Under the pieces are notes generated by a model. That model did no database searches and was not told where the DNA came from. It was given only the letters and a program-made list of their open reading frames with translations. A stretch of DNA of 64,000 nucleotides from Propionimicrobium sp. PCR01-08-3 (lineage in GTDB: Bacteria > Actinomycetota > Actinomycetes > Propionibacteriales > Propionibacteriaceae), in contig NZ_CP127390.1 in the NCBI RefSeq assembly GCF_030286045.1, positions 2,373,482-2,437,481 of the forward strand, written 5' to 3'. Shown piece after piece: positions 31,239-37,746 of the stretch (positions within the stretch are counted from its first letter, which is position 1; each line of letters starts with the position of its first letter). The position numbers and the translations under genes were made by a program.

Positions 31239-31244
31239 TAGCGT
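31239..31244 (+). promoter_or_regulatory. -10 box of apbE (leaderless)
   Basis: TAGCGT ends 7 nt before the apbE ATG. Confidence 0.5.
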
Positions 31245-31251
31245 CGGTGAG

Positions 31252-32232
31252 ATGACGCGGGCGACCAGGAGCTACTACGCGCTGGGGACTCGTGTCACGC
31301 TGATGGTCGACGCCCCCGATCCGGACGCGCTGCTCGGTCGCACGGTGGCCTTCGTCGGAGAATACGAAGAGCTACTCAGCGCCAACCTGTCCTCGTCCGA
31401 GATCGGGCGCATCAATCAGGCCGCAGGGATCGCGCCGGTCGAAGTCAGCCCGGCCGGCTATCGGCTGGTCAGGGAATCGGTGCTGGTCAGCCGCAGTGAC
31501 AAAGGCTTCAATGTGGCGATCGGGCCGCTCGTCCAGGCGTGGCGGATCGGTTTCGACGATGCCCGCGAGCCGTCGGCCGGCGAGGTCGAAAAGGCCCGGC
31601 AGCTGATCGATCCGCAGCAGATCCGTCTTGACGACGACGCCCATTCGGTCTTTCTCGAGCGCGTCGGCATGAGGCTCGACCTCGGCGCGATCGCCAAGGG
31701 GTACATCGCCGACGCCATCGCCGAGGTTTGGCGGCGGGCTCCGGGATTTCGCCGTGGTGTCATCGATCTCGGCGGCAACGTCGTCACCGTTGGCCGATCA
31801 CCGCATCCCGATGGACGCTGGCGGGTCGGCGTCCAATCACCGTTAGCCGACCGCGGGCATTCGCTCGGGACGCTCGCGCTGCCCGCCTGTTCGGTGGTGA
31901 CGACGGGTAGCTATGAACGAACCCACACGGCAAACGGACGCACCTGGCACCACATTCTCGATCCGCGGACCGGGTATCCGCTGGAAACCGACCTGGTCAG
32001 TGTGACCGCGGTGACCGCCTCGTCCACCACGGCGGAGATCTGGTCGACCATCGGCTTCTTCAACGGCGCGCGAGCAACCCTTGAGCTGATCCCTCCGGGC
32101 CTCGAAATCGGATTCGTCTTCGTCACCCGAGATCGGACGATCCATCTGTCACCCGGCTTGGCCGACAGCTTCACGCTCACCGATGACGGCTATTCCCTCT
32201 CGGATTGCGCCCGCTGGACGCCCTGCACGTAG
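31252..32232 (+). CDS. apbE: FAD:protein FMN transferase ApbE
   Basis: 326 aa. Attaches FMN covalently to Ser/Thr in the [S/T]GA[T/S] motif of FMN_bind domains, using FAD. Motifs present: YYALGTRV, DLGAIAKGYIAD, IDLGGNV, and the metal site region HHILDPRTGYPLETD. No signal peptide or lipobox is visible, so this looks like a cytoplasmic ApbE. Its likely target is the FMN_bind domain of the neighbouring three-domain reductase. Its 3' end overlaps the end of the convergent FMN reductase gene by 43 bp. Confidence 0.92.
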   Translation: MTRATRSYYALGTRVTLMVDAPDPDALLGRTVAFVGEYEELLSANLSSSEIGRINQAAGIAPVEVSPAGYRLVRESVLVSRSDKGFNVAIGPLVQAWRIGFDDAREPSAGEVEKARQLIDPQQIRLDDDAHSVFLERVGMRLDLGAIAKGYIADAIAEVWRRAPGFRRGVIDLGGNVVTVGRSPHPDGRWRVGVQSPLADRGHSLGTLALPACSVVTTGSYERTHTANGRTWHHILDPRTGYPLETDLVSVTAVTASSTTAEIWSTIGFFNGARATLELIPPGLEIGFVFVTRDRTIHLSPGLADSFTLTDDGYSLSDCARWTPCT

Positions 32233-32753
32233 CGCAGGAAGTCCGAGAAACAGTCGTTCATCACCTCGACGGCCGACGCGTCGGTCAGCTCACCATCGGA
32301 GTCGATGATCTGCTGCACGTTGCCGAGCAGTACCTCCTTGCCGGGCAGCACGTTCGCCTGGATCTCGGGCGAGGCGAGGATCTGCCGTAGATGAAGCTGG
32401 GCACGGGCCGAACCCAGAGGGCCGTAAGAACCGCCCACGATCAGCACCGGCTTGCCCTTCAGCGACTCCAGCTGATACGACATCCACTCCAACGCGCTCT
32501 TCAGGACTGCCGGAATCGAGTGATCGTATTCGGGGCAACTGATGATCACACCGTCGGCATCCTCGATCTGCTGCGCGAAGGCCAGCACCTCGGGTTGCTC
32601 GCCGGTCTCCAAGTCCTCGTTGAAGGCCGGCAGCCCACCGATCTCCAGCACCTCGATGGTGGCGAGCCCGGCAAAATGCTTCTGCATCCAGAGCAGCAGA
32701 AGCCGGTTAAAAGAGAGTTCGGCATTGGTCCCGACGATGGCTGCCAGTTTCAT
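32190..32753 (-). CDS. NADPH-dependent FMN reductase-family protein
   Basis: 187 aa flavodoxin-like FMN_red protein. Motifs: VGTNAELSFNRLLL, the phosphate-binding start; IISCPEYDHSIPAVLKSALEW, the family signature; and VLIVGGSYGPLGSARAQLHLR. It would pass electrons from NAD(P)H to FMN or a partner flavin. It is a close paralogue of the N-terminal domain of the large reductase 13 bp upstream, so a tandem duplication is likely. GAGGAA lies 4-5 nt before the ATG. Overlaps apbE tail to tail. Confidence 0.9.
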   Translation of the reverse strand: MKLAAIVGTNAELSFNRLLLLWMQKHFAGLATIEVLEIGGLPAFNEDLETGEQPEVLAFAQQIEDADGVIISCPEYDHSIPAVLKSALEWMSYQLESLKGKPVLIVGGSYGPLGSARAQLHLRQILASPEIQANVLPGKEVLLGNVQQIIDSDGELTDASAVEVMNDCFSDFLRYVQGVQRAQSERE

Positions 32754-32766
32754 CGATTCCTCACAA

Positions 32767-35250
32767 TCAGCGTCCGGGCACCTGGCGCAGCGCGTCGGCG
32801 ACGGCTGCCTTGAGAGCGTTGCTCGACACCGTCGCACCCGAGATCACATCGACGTCGGCACTGTCGCGGGCCACCATCTGCGCGGGCAGCTTCTGCAGTG
32901 CCTCGCCGGCGACGTCCCCGGTCTCGGACTGGCTGATGATCTCGATGTCCCGGAGCTTCCGGTCGTCGTCCACCGTGACGCGGACGGTGATCTCGGCGCC
33001 CATGCCGGCCTTGCTTCGTCCGATGAATTGGCCGGGCCCAAGCGGAATGTCTGCTTGGCTCTGCGCCAGGTCACTCTTGAAGCTGCCGAGCGTCTGCCCG
33101 GTGTTGGTCGCCACCATGGCGGGCGCCACATCGTCCTGGCGCGAAGCCTGCACGCCGGATTGCTGCTTCGGCACGGCGGCGTTCTGCCCGGCGATCTTGC
33201 CGAAGATCAGGCACTCGGCGATGTTCTGGCCGCCCTGGTAGACGCCCGCGCACACCCCGCCGAGCTCGCCGGCGCCATACAGGTGCCCGATCGGGCACCC
33301 ATCGGGGTCGAGGATCTCGGCGCGCGAGTTGCGCCGAGGGCCACCCTGGGTGTTGAGCATGCCCTGCAACATCGCTATGGCGTAGTAGGGCCCCTGATCG
33401 AAGGCGCGCATGGTCTCGGGGTCGCGTCCGAACTCGTAATCTGTACCCTGCTGGACGAAGGAGTTGAACCGTTCGATGGTCTTCGCGAGGGTCTGCGGAT
33501 CGGCCCCGATGAGTTCCGCCAGTTGTTCTGCGGTGTCGGCCTGCACGGCCCGGTCCAGCACCTCCGGATGCTCGCCGTGCACGATCTCGTCGTGTTTCTC
33601 CTGGTCGAAGATCAGGTGCGGGTGCGCCTGCGCGGGTGGCACCCGCCAGATCCCGTGATCGAAGATGTGGCCGTGGCGGTTCGTCTCGTCTTCGCGGAAG
33701 TAGCGGGAGCCATCGTCCCCAACCGTCAGCAGGCTGCCGGTCGCGAGGTCGTCGTAGCCGAAGACGAGCAGCGGGCCGCGCTCACCGTCGGGCACCGCGA
33801 AGGTCAGTCCGTGCTGCAGGCCGAGCGACTCGTAGTTGGCCATGTGCCACAGGTCTGCGCCCGCTTCGATCGCCAGGTCAACCCCTGCGCCCTTGTTGAA
33901 CAGGGATCCGGCCGGTGCCAGCCGTGGCGCCCCGAGGTAGTCCTGGATCATCCGCCGGTTGTTCTCGAATCCGCCGGTGGCCAGCACCACACCGTTCAGC
34001 GCCCGAATGTTGCGCAGCACGTGTTCGCGTTCGATCTGGACGCCGGCGATCGTGCGTCCATCGTCCGCCTTGATCAGATGGCGGGCCGGAGACCTGTACC
34101 AGACATCGATCGCGTCGGCCCGGTCGGCCACTTTCTGGTGCAAGATCTTCCACAGTGCGCCGTCGAAGAATCCTTCGTGGACGAGCAGCAGGTCGATGCA
34201 GTCTCCGCCCTCGAATTCCGGATACTCCGGGAACATCCCGAAATCTGCGCCCAGCAGTTGCTTCGAGCTGACGGGTTCGACATCCAGGTACTGCCTGAAG
34301 TAGCTCTTCATGCCGGCCATGCCCTCGACATAGGTGTCGACGATCGCCTCATCGAGATCCATCGGGCCCAACTGGGCACGGTAGTAGGCACGCAGTTTTT
34401 CTTCATCGTCGCCGTAGCAGACCAACTGCCCCGACACTCGGGTGTTGCCGCCCTCGTGGCCTTCGGGAGCCGAGTCCACGAGCAGCACCGTGGCGCCGTC
34501 GTCCGCTGCGAACCTGGCGGCGGTAGCTCCCGCCCCGCCGAAGCCCAGCACGACGACGTCATAGGTCGCGTCCCAATGAACGGCATGTGATTGCACCATC
34601 TCTTGATCTCCTTTGATCGTTGATGCGGGTTCGGGCTGACTGCTGTATCCGGTCGGCTGCAACCCCTTCGTTCGTCCCGCGGACTCCAGCACGCTCGATT
34701 GCTCTCGGCCCTGCTCGAGGCGGACGAAATCGATGAAATCGGCGAAGCACTGCTCCAGGAAAGTGATCGTGCCCGGGTCCACCAACTCACCCTGATCGTC
34801 AAAAGCGTCCTTGACCCCACCCAGCAGAAATTCGTTGCCGGGCAGCACCCGGGCGCTGACGCCCGGAGAATCCAGAATCTGACGCAGATGGATCTGCGCC
34901 CGCGACGACCCCTGCGGATGGTAGGAAGCGCCGACGATCATCACCGGTTTGCCGTTGAGCGGATGCTGCCGGTACGACAGCCATTCGAGCACGCTCTTGA
35001 GCGCCGACGGCACCGAATGATTGTGCTCCGGGCAACCGATGATCACCCCGTCGGCAGCCACGATCTGACGGCTCAACCGGGTGACCGGCTCCGGATCCTG
35101 CTCAGGAACATCCTCGTTGAACATCGGAACATCCGCGATGTTGCAGACCTCAATGTCGGCGGCCTCGGCAAAGTGTCGCTTCATGAAATTCAGCAGCAGA
35201 CGGTTAAAAGAATGACTTGCATTGGTTCCGGTAATCGCCACGAGCTTCAC
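32767..35250 (-). CDS. Three-domain flavin reductase: FMN_red + FAD_binding_2 + FMN_bind
   Basis: 827 aa, no signal peptide. Residues 1-185: FMN_red domain (GCPEHNHSVPSALKSVLEW). Residues 225-690: FAD-dependent reductase of the fumarate reductase/urocanate reductase type (VVVLGFGGAGATAA; LATGGFENN; GHLYGAGELGG). Residues 735-827: FMN_bind domain with SGAT, Thr807 being the predicted covalent FMN site for ApbE. The layout resembles soluble NADH-dependent fumarate, acrylate and cinnamate reductases. The Arg proton donor seems kept (DETNRHGH) but substrate-carboxylate residues of fumarate reductase differ, so the acceptor is unknown. Start GTG 35250 has GGAGG 8 nt upstream. A second strong ribosome site precedes Met218. 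Confidence 0.9.
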   Translation of the reverse strand: MKLVAITGTNASHSFNRLLLNFMKRHFAEAADIEVCNIADVPMFNEDVPEQDPEPVTRLSRQIVAADGVIIGCPEHNHSVPSALKSVLEWLSYRQHPLNGKPVMIVGASYHPQGSSRAQIHLRQILDSPGVSARVLPGNEFLLGGVKDAFDDQGELVDPGTITFLEQCFADFIDFVRLEQGREQSSVLESAGRTKGLQPTGYSSQPEPASTIKGDQEMVQSHAVHWDATYDVVVLGFGGAGATAARFAADDGATVLLVDSAPEGHEGGNTRVSGQLVCYGDDEEKLRAYYRAQLGPMDLDEAIVDTYVEGMAGMKSYFRQYLDVEPVSSKQLLGADFGMFPEYPEFEGGDCIDLLLVHEGFFDGALWKILHQKVADRADAIDVWYRSPARHLIKADDGRTIAGVQIEREHVLRNIRALNGVVLATGGFENNRRMIQDYLGAPRLAPAGSLFNKGAGVDLAIEAGADLWHMANYESLGLQHGLTFAVPDGERGPLLVFGYDDLATGSLLTVGDDGSRYFREDETNRHGHIFDHGIWRVPPAQAHPHLIFDQEKHDEIVHGEHPEVLDRAVQADTAEQLAELIGADPQTLAKTIERFNSFVQQGTDYEFGRDPETMRAFDQGPYYAIAMLQGMLNTQGGPRRNSRAEILDPDGCPIGHLYGAGELGGVCAGVYQGGQNIAECLIFGKIAGQNAAVPKQQSGVQASRQDDVAPAMVATNTGQTLGSFKSDLAQSQADIPLGPGQFIGRSKAGMGAEITVRVTVDDDRKLRDIEIISQSETGDVAGEALQKLPAQMVARDSADVDVISGATVSSNALKAAVADALRQVPGR
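34599..34618 (-). promoter_or_regulatory. Internal Shine-Dalgarno before Met218 of the fusion reductase
   Basis: On the minus strand AAAGGAGATCAAGAGATG places a near-ideal AAGGAG 8 nt before an in-frame ATG (34599-34597). That ATG sits exactly at the junction between the FMN_red domain and the FAD domain, so a 610-residue FAD/FMN_bind product could be made separately. Confidence 0.6.
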
Positions 35251-35358
35251 GCGGTTCACCTCCGTCGGTACGCCATTGGGGCCGGACGAGCAACAACCGT
35301 TCGTTCTTCGTCATACCCTGACCTCACCTTATCGTGCACGCCGCATCCTCAACATAAC

Positions 35359-35394
35359 TTGAACGATTGTTTACACTATTAAACATGCGTTCAA
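35359..35394. promoter_or_regulatory. Palindromic operator over the tetR start codon
   Basis: TTGAACG-2-TGTTTA-6-TAAACA-2-CGTTCAA is a 36-bp inverted repeat with only the 2-nt spacers unmatched. It covers the TACACT -10 box and the ATG of the TetR gene and faces the divergent reductase promoter. This is the expected binding site for the TetR protein itself. Confidence 0.75.
35372..35377 (+). promoter_or_regulatory. -10 box of the tetR-ABC operon (leaderless)
   Basis: TACACT lies inside the palindrome and ends 7 nt before ATG 35385. Confidence 0.5.
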
Positions 35395-36029
35395 TCAACG
35401 ATCGTGGTGACCTCACCACCAAGGCACGGATCCGGAATGCCGCCATCGAGTTGTTTGCCGAGAAGGGCTTCGAGCGCGCCAGCCTGCGCGCCATCGCAGA
35501 GCGTGCCGAGGTGAGCGCAGGCCTGGTCGTCCACCACTTTGGAGACAAGAACGGGCTGAAGAAGGCGTGCGATGAATATGTCGTCGCCGAGTTCACTGAC
35601 GACCGGCATTCGGTGGGCACGGCTCCGACTCTCGAGTCGATTCAGGCGATGCTCGGCGATCTGGATTCCTATGATCCGGCGCTGGACTACCTGGCGCGCA
35701 TGCTGACAGACGACTCACCAAGCTCGGATGATCTCTTCGATCGGATGCTGCAGGGCACCTTGGAGATGCTTGAAGCCCAGCAGGCGGCCGGCGTGATCCA
35801 TCCGGTCTCAGATCTTCAGGGCATGGCACTGTTGCTCACCGCGATGGGGCTCGCCCCGGTGGTGATGCATCGGCAGGTTGCCCGCGTGCTCGGCACCGGC
35901 ACCCTGACCGGCCAGGGACTGGCCCGGCTCACCATGCCGACCATGGAGCTGTTCTCCCGGGGCCTTTACCGCGATCAGGGAATCTTGGACGCCACCCGAG
36001 AGGCTCTCGACAATCAACCGAAGGAGTAA
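35385..36029 (+). CDS. TetR-family transcriptional regulator
   Basis: 214 aa. N-terminal helix-turn-helix of the TetR type: IRNAAIELFAEKGFERASLRAIAERAEVSAGLVVHHFGDK. The rest is a helical ligand domain without recognisable specificity. It is the first gene of a tetR-ABC ATPase-permease operon and divergent from the flavin reductase. The 36-bp palindrome across its start codon strongly suggests autorepression, and possibly control of the divergent reductase. Its stop overlaps the first ATG of the next gene. Confidence 0.92.
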   Translation: MRSINDRGDLTTKARIRNAAIELFAEKGFERASLRAIAERAEVSAGLVVHHFGDKNGLKKACDEYVVAEFTDDRHSVGTAPTLESIQAMLGDLDSYDPALDYLARMLTDDSPSSDDLFDRMLQGTLEMLEAQQAAGVIHPVSDLQGMALLLTAMGLAPVVMHRQVARVLGTGTLTGQGLARLTMPTMELFSRGLYRDQGILDATREALDNQPKE

Positions 36030-36031
36030 TG

Positions 36032-36952
36032 ATGTCACCACCGATCGAATGCATAGCCCTTAGCAAGAAGTTCGGCCATCTAACGGCGGTCCGTGACCTC
36101 AACCTGTCACTGGAGGAGGGAACCGTACTGGGTTTCGTCGGTCCGAACGGCGCCGGAAAATCCACCACCATCCGGATGCTGCTCGGTTTGGCCCGTCCGA
36201 GTGCCGGAAGTGTGCGAATCTTCGGCTCCGAGCCGCAGCGCGACGTCAAGGTGCGAGGACGAGTCGGCTACTCCCCCGGTGAGTTGCGATTGGACGACCG
36301 GCTCAGCGTCAAGACGACGCTGGCGAGTTGGGCCAGATTGCGGGGCACGGTGGACGCCGGATTTCGCGACGAGTTGATCGAACGGCTGGACGTTCAGCCG
36401 GACCGGCAGGTGCGCGGGCTCTCCACCGGAAACCGGCGAAAGGTCGCGTTGGTCGGCGCACTGATGTCCAAACCCGACCTGCTGATTCTGGATGAGCCAA
36501 CAAATGGGCTCGACCCGATCGTCCAGTCAGAATTCATGACCATTCTCTCCGAAGCCGCGCTGCGGGGCACCAGCATATTGCTGTCGTCCCATATTCTCAG
36601 CGAGGTCGAACGCATTGCCGATCTGGTGCTCGTGATTCGGGCCGGAGCAATCGTCGCGTCGGGGCCCACCAAACAATTGCGCGGAGATCTGCCACAGATC
36701 TTCCGGGCCAACTTCCGAACCGATGCCCCGGCGGCAACGCAATTCGAGCAACTGACCGGCACCATAAAGGTCGAAAAGCCGCACTCCCGAGAATTGCTGA
36801 TCCACTGGTCGGGGCCTCCCGGCCCACTATTGTCGCGGCTGGCCGATTATGAACTCGATTCGCTCACCGCGCCCGAGCCGGATTTGGAGCAGGCATTCCT
36901 TTCCTACTACCGCTCCGATCAGCCAACGGACGCGAAACGAGGTGAATCATGA
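36032..36952 (+). CDS. ABC transporter ATP-binding protein
   Basis: 306 aa. Nucleotide-binding subunit: Walker A GPNGAGKST, Walker B LLILDEPTNGLD, H-loop SSHILSEV. The signature reads LSTGNRRKV in place of LSGGQ. The C-terminal DUF-type extension of about 90 residues is normal for ABC-2 exporters. Two ATGs follow AAGGAG (36029 and 36032); the second has better spacing. Ends in a 4-nt overlap with the permease. With TetR control, a drug or toxic-metabolite exporter is likely. Confidence 0.92.
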   Translation: MSPPIECIALSKKFGHLTAVRDLNLSLEEGTVLGFVGPNGAGKSTTIRMLLGLARPSAGSVRIFGSEPQRDVKVRGRVGYSPGELRLDDRLSVKTTLASWARLRGTVDAGFRDELIERLDVQPDRQVRGLSTGNRRKVALVGALMSKPDLLILDEPTNGLDPIVQSEFMTILSEAALRGTSILLSSHILSEVERIADLVLVIRAGAIVASGPTKQLRGDLPQIFRANFRTDAPAATQFEQLTGTIKVEKPHSRELLIHWSGPPGPLLSRLADYELDSLTAPEPDLEQAFLSYYRSDQPTDAKRGES

Positions 36953-37746
36953 AACTCGAATTGTTCACCCGGGCCATGGCCACGCAAAGACGCGCCGCCG
37001 TGATCTGGTGCATCTGCCTGATAGCACTCACGGCGTCAGTGGTGGCGCTTTGGCCTTCAATGAGTGGCTCCGGATCACTGGAGTCGATATTTGCGGGGTT
37101 ACCGCCCGAAGTCATCTCCTCGCTCGGACTGAACGACTTTGGTTCCCCGGCAGGATTCCTCAACGGAAACCTCTATGCGGTTTTCATGCCGCTATTGTTC
37201 GCAGTGCTGGGCACGGTGCAGATGAATGCGCTCACCGCAGCCGATGAGGACGCGGGCAGGCTCGAACTATTGCTGGCACTTCCGGTATCCAGGATGCAGG
37301 TCTATATCAGCCGCTTCGTCGCGGTATTTCTGGTGCTTGCCGGTATTGCCGCGGTCACCGGTGCGACGATCTGGATAACTGCCCCATGGTTCGATATGGA
37401 GATCGAACCGGCAGGCATCGCAGCGGTCACCTTGAGCGTCTTTCTTCTGGGCATGCTGCAGGCATCATTGGTGCTGGCGCTGGCCGGCATCGGAATGCGC
37501 GCCTCTGCCGTCAATGCCGTCGCGTTCGCGGTCATCGCAGCCGGATACGTGCTGCACGCCCTACTGCCGTTGGCAGATCTCGAATTCGATTGGGCACGGC
37601 TCTCCCCCTGGCATTGGGCGCTTGGTGGCGACCCGCTGAACTCCGGTTTCGATGGCGAGGGAGCTGCGCTCCTGGTCGCATGCAGTGCCGTGCTGCTGGT
37701 GGCCGGTCTGCTGGCCATTGGGCGGCGGACGATCCGCTCGAGCTAG
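36949..37746 (+). CDS. ABC-2 type transporter permease
   Basis: 265 aa, with about six membrane helices (for example 18-36, 80-95, 120-145, 160-185, 188-208, 240-258). The cytoplasmic stretch EDAGRLELLLALPVSRMQVY is the coupling region seen in ABC-2 permeases. Partner of the preceding ATPase through an ATGA overlap. Substrate unknown. A strong bidirectional terminator follows 12 bp after the stop. Confidence 0.9.
   Translation: MKLELFTRAMATQRRAAVIWCICLIALTASVVALWPSMSGSGSLESIFAGLPPEVISSLGLNDFGSPAGFLNGNLYAVFMPLLFAVLGTVQMNALTAADEDAGRLELLLALPVSRMQVYISRFVAVFLVLAGIAAVTGATIWITAPWFDMEIEPAGIAAVTLSVFLLGMLQASLVLALAGIGMRASAVNAVAFAVIAAGYVLHALLPLADLEFDWARLSPWHWALGGDPLNSGFDGEGAALLVACSAVLLVAGLLAIGRRTIRSS

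Follow-up and report, generated by a model that had tools for sequence, protein, structure and literature searches.

A three-gene cassette for a predicted soluble, ApbE-flavinylated reductase with an altered carboxylate clamp in Propionimicrobium sp. PCR01-08-3

The closest characterised system to the locus described here is HcrAB—the NADH-dependent hydroxycinnamate reductase of lactobacilli, which acts on caffeic, ferulic, and p-coumaric acids. The locus lies in a stretch of 64,000 nucleotides of Propionimicrobium sp. PCR01-08-3 (contig NZ_CP127390.1, positions 2,373,482 to 2,437,481; termed the window, with positions counted from its first letter) and centers on a three-gene cassette for an ApbE-type transferase, a three-domain reductase, and a separate FMN_red protein. 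HcrAB had not been named in the earlier note on this DNA, which was made from the sequence alone. In L. plantarum, hcrR, hcrA, hcrB, and hcrC encode 315, 204, 812, and 186 residues (PMC11126511). HcrAB uses NADH and FMN and is predicted to be cytoplasmic (PMC10295242, PMC11126511, PMC4600210); NADH and FMN are required by HcrB, whose production is raised and whose proteolysis is reduced by HcrA (PMC10295242). For the window, the probable product of the cassette is a soluble C=C reductase that depends on NAD(P)H, is fed by an FMN_red heterodimer, and acts on a substrate bound without the usual carboxylate clamp; the cassette probably derives from Lactobacillaceae, and the adjoining TetR–ABC genes look like a separate module.

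The genome of 3.29 Mb consists of two contigs. Between kup and clpC, the gene order is apbE on the plus strand, the reductase/FMN_red operon on the minus strand, and a divergent tetR–ABC operon; all six genes given in the earlier note were recovered by Pfam and open reading frame (ORF) coordinates. The ApbE-type FAD:protein FMN transferase (31252..32232, plus strand; 326 residues; Pfam ApbE E-value 9e-67) has its start set at ATG 31252—a correction to that note—and meets the gene of the separate FMN_red protein tail to tail, as had been described, with an overlap of 43 bp. This HcrA-like partner (32190..32753, minus strand; 187 residues) carries the motif PEYD and matches Pfam FMN_red at an E-value of 2e-35, computed on a longer ORF. 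The reductase of 827 residues (32767..35250, minus strand) starts at GTG 35250, preceded by GGAGGTG, and features FMN_red at approximately residues 5–147 (E-value 1e-35; motif PEHN), FAD_binding_2 at approximately 234–679 (1e-26), and FMN_bind at approximately 752–824 (2e-16); these Pfam coordinates were computed on an ORF of 830 residues, three longer than the protein. AlphaFold2 (11 rows) models FMN_red with confidence and FMN_bind mostly so.

The published flavinylation motif is D-x-x-[S/T]-G-A-[S/T] (PMC12052999). The stretch D801-V-I-S-G-A-T807 of the reductase (32830..32850, minus strand) fits it, and Thr807, which the earlier note had picked out by its SGAT, is the predicted flavin site. 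Among the 55 non-overlapping ORFs of the window (20,889 residues), the motif is unique to the reductase, and in 42 of 46 further rows of the window type it likewise lies C-terminal to the FAD domain; the other four, L074 (broken frame), L062, L112, and L114, gave no hit with the search pattern. The combination by which ApbE-flavinylated proteins are recognised—an FMN_bind domain with this motif and an apbE gene close by—is present. ApbE itself has the stretches LDLGAIAKGYIAD, DLGGN, and HHILDPRTGYP in common with lactobacillar copies; no signal peptide or lipobox was seen in it, and its N-terminal hydrophobicity is low. As none of the reductase, partner, and ApbE has a strong N-terminal hydrophobic segment, the three are read as cytosolic. 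Together with the conserved gene set, this leaves a soluble, ApbE-flavinylated, NAD(P)H-driven reductase, as first proposed, the best reading.

The genome contains two ApbE genes (three matched stretches in two ORFs), and of its two ApbE/FMN_bind sets that of the cassette is the one without export features. The second set (G000:C1:3160000-3168000; L109) has its ApbE gene beside one for a small FMN_bind protein, together with genes of an FtsX-like permease and an ABC ATPase and, approximately 6 kb away, an FTR1 iron permease; it looks like an extracytosolic, iron-related flavinylation set. Klebsiella pneumoniae also has two ApbE proteins, of which the signal-less one serves a soluble fumarate reductase (PMC12052999). 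The likeness, a cytosolic ApbE with a soluble reductase, concerns the description of the ApbE pairing only.

For the comparison with HcrAB, 397 Lactobacillaceae genomes were searched with an HcrB-type protein, of which 81 match at 1e-100. The locus L173 encodes a divergent LysR protein of 315 residues, an FMN_red protein of 204, a reductase of 812 (from its second start), and an ORF of 186; L174–L176 match with alternative starts. These four loci are taken as HcrAB because their gene order and product lengths agree with those in print, rather than via a named HcrB record. Two mismatches with print were found: one review places hcrR downstream of hcrB and cotranscribed, whereas the LysR gene of L173 is divergent and upstream; and lp_1424 is given the signature PEYN...LKNAID in one paper, against PEYD...LKSAIEW in the HcrA-like protein of L173. 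Par1 was set aside as a comparison, being a short-chain dehydrogenase/reductase according to one paper and a distant HcrB homologue according to another.

The L173 reductase features FMN_red at 1–147, FMN_bind at 201–273 (DAISGAS at 252), and FAD_binding_2 at 302–788, with HHTMGG and NRLGGN near its end. Both systems have the same three domains in one long chain, a separate FMN_red partner, and the pair PEHN/PEYD, and the fused FMN_red and the partner are 60% and 52% identical to their L173 counterparts. These likenesses would suit a second HcrAB-like hydroxycinnamate reductase, as would the surroundings of one relative (L085, 6775-13886), where phenolic metabolism is hinted at by two nearby LysR-like genes and by members of the UbiD and Flavoprotein (UbiX-like) families, to which phenolic-acid decarboxylases belong. 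The domain order differs, however, being FMN_red/FMN_bind/FAD in the HcrB type and FMN_red/FAD/FMN_bind in the window protein; the cassette lacks a LysR gene as counterpart of hcrR and adjoins a TetR gene instead; and the partner gene lies downstream of the reductase. The FAD domain is only 27–29% identical to the HcrB type (27% to L173, in the second part of the domain, with FMN_bind at 33%), whereas the lactobacillar window-type protein of L077 reaches 62, 57, and 51% in FMN_red, FAD, and FMN_bind. An approximately unbiased (AU) test rejects a single clade of FAD domains for the two three-domain groups (p 4e-8), and the His and Arg that clamp the substrate carboxylate are replaced. An HcrAB-like activity on hydroxycinnamates is, hence, distinctly unlikely, and the FAD module of the window belongs to another lineage than that of HcrB.

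Arg560, Gly563, Arg411, and His520 of UrdA hold the carboxylate of its substrate, contacts that are called conserved across the fumarate reductase family (PMC7921117). Aligned with flavocytochrome c3 fumarate reductase (1qo8), the window protein reads LNTQGG in place of HHTMGG and YQGGQN in place of RLGGN—with Asn633 at the position of the clamp His and Tyr671 at that of the clamp Arg. UrdA, flavocytochrome c3 fumarate reductases, and the window protein share the FAD_binding_2 family, probably the catalytic Arg, and a Gly at clamp Arg+3; the window protein differs in the clamp (His520 and Arg560 of UrdA; PMC7921117), in having no visible signal peptide, and in its FMN_red input. As judged by alignment, Arg525 in the stretch NRHG is the probable counterpart of the catalytic Arg, offset by one residue. 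Tyr occupies the Arg position in all 47 window-type rows and Asn the His position in 45, the other two, L027 and L028, having His; this count excludes L014, L016, and L099 and the unrelated ORFs L120 9589-12354 and L121 1489-4071. N633, T634, Q635, Y671, N676, and H526 are present in 44/44 rows and R525 in 43/44, counted on the 47 rows without L027, L028, and L102. The HcrB-type rows keep both clamp residues in 18 of 18 cases (8/8, 4/4, and 6/6 in three sets).

The vinylphenol reductase VprA (NF053717) is a further lactobacillar FAD_binding_2 reductase without the carboxylate clamp. In its family, named for carboxylate-free substrates, the clamp is absent from all 12 rows, which carry Cys and Asn at these places. 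As a close relative, VprA was rejected (27% identity; 111 bits against a cut-off of 600 for NF053717), and VprA-family ORFs of 484–516 residues are too short for two extra domains. That loss of the clamp accompanies a non-carboxylate substrate in VprA, and its presence carboxylates in the HcrB type, is suggestive but not proof. The earlier note had drawn the likely substrate from fumarate, acrylate, cinnamate, and urocanate reductases; this step is doubtful because the carboxylate-binding His and Arg of those enzymes are replaced here. Besides its single-domain relatives, the multi-domain HcrB type and an old yellow enzyme-like Vibrio type have to be considered.

Ketosteroid dehydrogenases use a Tyr near the position of the clamp Arg. 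The Tyr of the window protein recalls that residue (compare the Cgr2 analysis in PMC5953540), and an enzyme of this kind would run in the oxidative direction and pass electrons to NAD(P)+. Yet the spacing Y-Q-G-G follows the R-L-G-G of fumarate reductase, the FMN_red module and the kinship with known reductases favor reduction, and the ketosteroid-dehydrogenase models score far below their cut-offs (NF009478 135 bits against 789; NF005882 116 against 788; NF009479 76 against 793); such a dehydrogenase is very improbable indeed.

The two three-domain groups appear to have been put together separately from shared parts, given the different domain order, the AU test on FAD domains (computed without L089, L063, L014, L016, and L099), the rejection of one clade for the window-type fused FMN_red domains (p 0.0016), and an FAD tree in which forms with and without a fused FMN_red are interspersed, forcing at least five changes for the fused form. 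A regularity of the FMN_red domains accompanies this: where a partner gene is present (17 of 17 loci), the motif is PEHN or PEYN in the fused domain and PEYD in the partner, whereas all 14 of 14 loci that lack such a gene have PEYD in the fused domain itself. Ten further HcrB-type loci agree, with PEHN in eight and SEHN in two (L181 and L182) of the fused domains and PEYD in all ten partners, so that a separate PEYD goes with a fused xE[H/Y]N in 27/27 loci. The search for partner genes reached 3.5 kb within the sequence retrieved for each locus; the L079 gene stands at the contig start, with its upstream side out of view. By this rule, the 187-residue protein is predicted to be an obligate dimer partner, in line with the effect of HcrA on HcrB (PMC10295242).

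Tandem FMN_red genes occur in L030, L032–L034, and an Enterococcus faecium plasmid (L139), some adjoining ApbE and the second often with a long C-terminal extension. Enterococcus plasmid records matching the HcrB-type query L118 number 94—among the matches listed, with the FMN_red part only—and the one such locus examined has IS1216 on its flanks. A fused reductase with an adjoining FMN transferase gene is also found on a Vibrio plasmid (L138). This protein differs from that of the window in its order Oxidored_FMN/FMN_bind/FAD, its input via Oxidored_FMN, and its HcrB-type FAD module, which together with FMN_bind is 56% identical to L118 over residues 173–796. The related tandem pairs in lactobacilli and on the enterococcal plasmid, some beside ApbE, leave some room for a general NADH:flavin or quinone diaphorase, or an H2O2-forming flavin reductase, with no dedicated enoate-type substrate. 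The FAD_binding_2 domain is retained, however, and its pocket is both altered and strongly conserved, which suggests selection for a specific substrate and makes a general diaphorase quite improbable.

At E <= 1e-20, the reductase finds matches in 8 of 147 genomes of the family. Four belong to the same genus (G000, G039, G096, and G072), while four other genomes of that genus have no match at this threshold. G072 holds the same match as a public metagenome-assembled genome labelled 'Propionibacterium sp.' (L029 = L074), in which the reductase frame is broken between approximately residues 702 and 718 (L029 8019-8052). The remaining four family matches cover the FAD domain or a part thereof at 28–41% identity, and the full-length protein is absent from all 139 family genomes outside the genus. 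Across the phylum, 10 of 396 genomes match at 1e-40, with full length only in the window's own genome; the partial matches comprise seven in family f27 (FAD or FAD/FMN_bind part), the FAD part in G507, and FMN_red only in G748. Among 201 genomes of Lactobacillaceae, 61 have a match at 1e-60, which in four cases runs nearly end to end in one piece at 55–57% identity, and lactobacillar plasmids carry FAD/FMN_bind proteins at approximately 52–53%, others at 40–42%. Many of the rows are close kin, and the row counts are not independent.

The Propionibacterium loci (L072, L073, and L029 = L074) show a uniform order of reductase, partner, and tail-to-tail ApbE, and the cassette occupies one chromosomal place in four Propionibacterium genomes, between clpC and aroD as shared flanks. 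The same reductase–partner pair was found in five lactobacillar loci (L075–L078 and L090), and in four of these an ApbE gene lies no more than 3 kb away: L077 and L078 have it directly tail to tail, L076 with two ORFs between, and L090 on the same strand. ApbE is absent from the 16 kb of L075. The conserved neighborhood that the earlier note had proposed as a check thus exists, as the genes for ApbE, FMN_red, and the three-domain protein are neighbors in the carriers of the genus Propionibacterium as well as in part of the lactobacilli.

In the FAD-domain tree, the three Propionibacterium rows form one clade (100/100). A quick FAD tree, computed without L089 and L063, which lacked a start match, places them inside a group of 39 rows, the others lactobacillar, at a Shimodaira–Hasegawa-like approximate likelihood ratio test (SH-aLRT) support of 99, with nearer forks at 89. 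In the FMN_red tree, one set of lactobacillar loci supplies the nearest kin of the fused domain (fork 83) and of the separate partner (fork 91), both forks being under the starred support level; the fork at 91 joins the separate protein to the partner FMN_reds of L075–L078 and L090. Transfer of the cassette is likely because of its one chromosomal place in four Propionibacterium genomes and its nesting in the Lactobacillaceae radiation. These placements point to what was probably an old transfer from Lactobacillaceae before the carrier species split. No relative turned up in one scan of viral_contigs for a phage or viral vehicle, and no PADLOC match for anti-phage defense in the four proteins scanned.

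A plain empty site was rejected for genomes without the cassette, as other genes lie downstream of clpC in G106, G016, and G057; G086 has no clpC match at threshold. On the clpC side, G106 (L106 5432-13735) has a 4Fe-4S protein and two molybdopterin oxidoreductases, with a Tat signal in one of these proteins, whereas G016 (L107) has a PASTA kinase and G057 (L108) a CshA/SpaA-type surface protein. The site at clpC, hence, varies between species.

In the favored reading of a C=C reductase, the fused FMN_red of the 827-residue protein would pair with the separate FMN_red to a heterodimer that takes the hydride of NAD(P)H on FMN. Electrons would then pass to the FMN that ApbE is predicted to attach to Thr807 in FMN_bind, and on to the FAD in FAD_binding_2, which would hand a hydride to the substrate with Arg525 as the likely proton donor. 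Because the catalytic module is separately derived and lacks the usual carboxylate clamp, the substrate is not expected to be held in the way of fumarate, acrylate, or cinnamate. An unsaturated carbonyl or aromatic compound that is neutral, or that is anchored in another manner, would fit. The gain to the cell would be NAD(P)+—an electron sink—and the removal of an unsaturated, probably plant-derived compound.

Several points weigh against this reading. The pocket residues are read from an alignment at 27–29% identity, Arg525 matches the catalytic Arg only with the one-residue shift, and in one MAFFT alignment the catalytic Arg faces a gap; AlphaFold2 did not resolve the FAD domain (mean predicted local distance difference test score, pLDDT, 52.5). 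L123 (Asn/Tyr) has genes of Na+/sulfate (DASS) family symporters nearby, and L027 and L028 (His/Tyr) have anion-permease or DASS genes in their vicinity, so some relatives with an altered clamp may use carboxylates that they bind in a different way. The partner rule is a post hoc observation and covers few independent lineages. GC and GC3 of the cassette are like those of its neighbors, and composition was rejected as a sign of recent transfer. No reported activity, substrate, or covalent flavin was found for any member with the window-type FAD module, and among the open-access papers listed, with subscription papers and preprints mostly outside, no title or abstract describes this module or such a Propionibacterium cassette. 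A step beyond the favored reading is to regard the protein as a distinct class of reductase: soluble, NAD(P)H-dependent, ApbE-flavinylated, clamp-free, acting on unsaturated compounds, assembled independently of HcrB and in a different domain order from interchangeable FMN_red inputs, whose work is divided between two subunits (xE[H/Y]N/PEYD), set ahead of a different FAD module, and, after spreading among lactobacilli, passed on to Propionibacterium. This wider claim is tentative, being held with slightly less than even confidence.

The genes divergent from the reductase encode a TetR-family regulator (35385..36029, plus strand; TetR_N and TetR_C_25), a DrrA-like ABC exporter ATPase (36029..36952, plus strand; Pfam ABC_tran; best NCBIfam match drrA, below cut-off), and an ABC-2 type permease (36949..37746, plus strand; ABC2_membrane families at E-values of 4e-6 to 2e-4, below cut-offs). 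An imperfect palindrome of 36 bp in the divergent promoter region, TTGAACGATTGTTTA-CACTAT-TAAACATGCGTTCAA (35359..35394), spans the tetR start codon and is a probable TetR operator; it is a single site in its own genome at up to two mismatches. The element also occurs in G039 and G096, in which TetR is 67% identical.

The divergent layout around this one palindrome would be expected of a single detoxification locus, in which TetR senses a toxic compound and controls both its reduction and its export, as the earlier note had supposed. An orthologous ATPase (69% identity or more) is moreover present in 3 of 8 same-genus genomes (G000, G039, and G096), all of which carry the reductase. All TetR–ABC carriers have it at one chromosomal place, though, and the co-occurrence may reflect descent. 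G072 has the reductase without an ATPase orthologue, and neither kup nor tetR–ABC stands beside its cassette; a similar palindrome lies over the start of another tetR–ABC pair in G016, a genome without a reductase match; and in 27 lactobacillar loci (L075–L091 and L116–L125), tetR and the permease have no match and the ATPase reaches at most 32%. The supposed link is, hence, weak, and a common detoxification locus is unlikely. TetR–ABC looks like a separate, self-regulated exporter module, for which signals in common with the reductase are possible but not required.

The cassette is real, conserved, and coherent, and represents a variant among the soluble reductases that are fed by NAD(P)H and flavinylated by ApbE, with a layout and pocket unlike those of the known enzymes. 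Genes with these three domains may get read as hydroxycinnamate or fumarate reductases. The comparison suggests two separate fusions, in each of which a different catalytic module was combined with an electron-input domain of one kind, and in that case the substrate does not follow from domain content. The cassette would add a cytosolic, NAD(P)H-fed form of protein flavinylation in an actinobacterium, and, as a compact soluble set that brings its own ApbE and partner, it makes possible direct tests of the substrate, the flavinylation, and the role of the second FMN_red.

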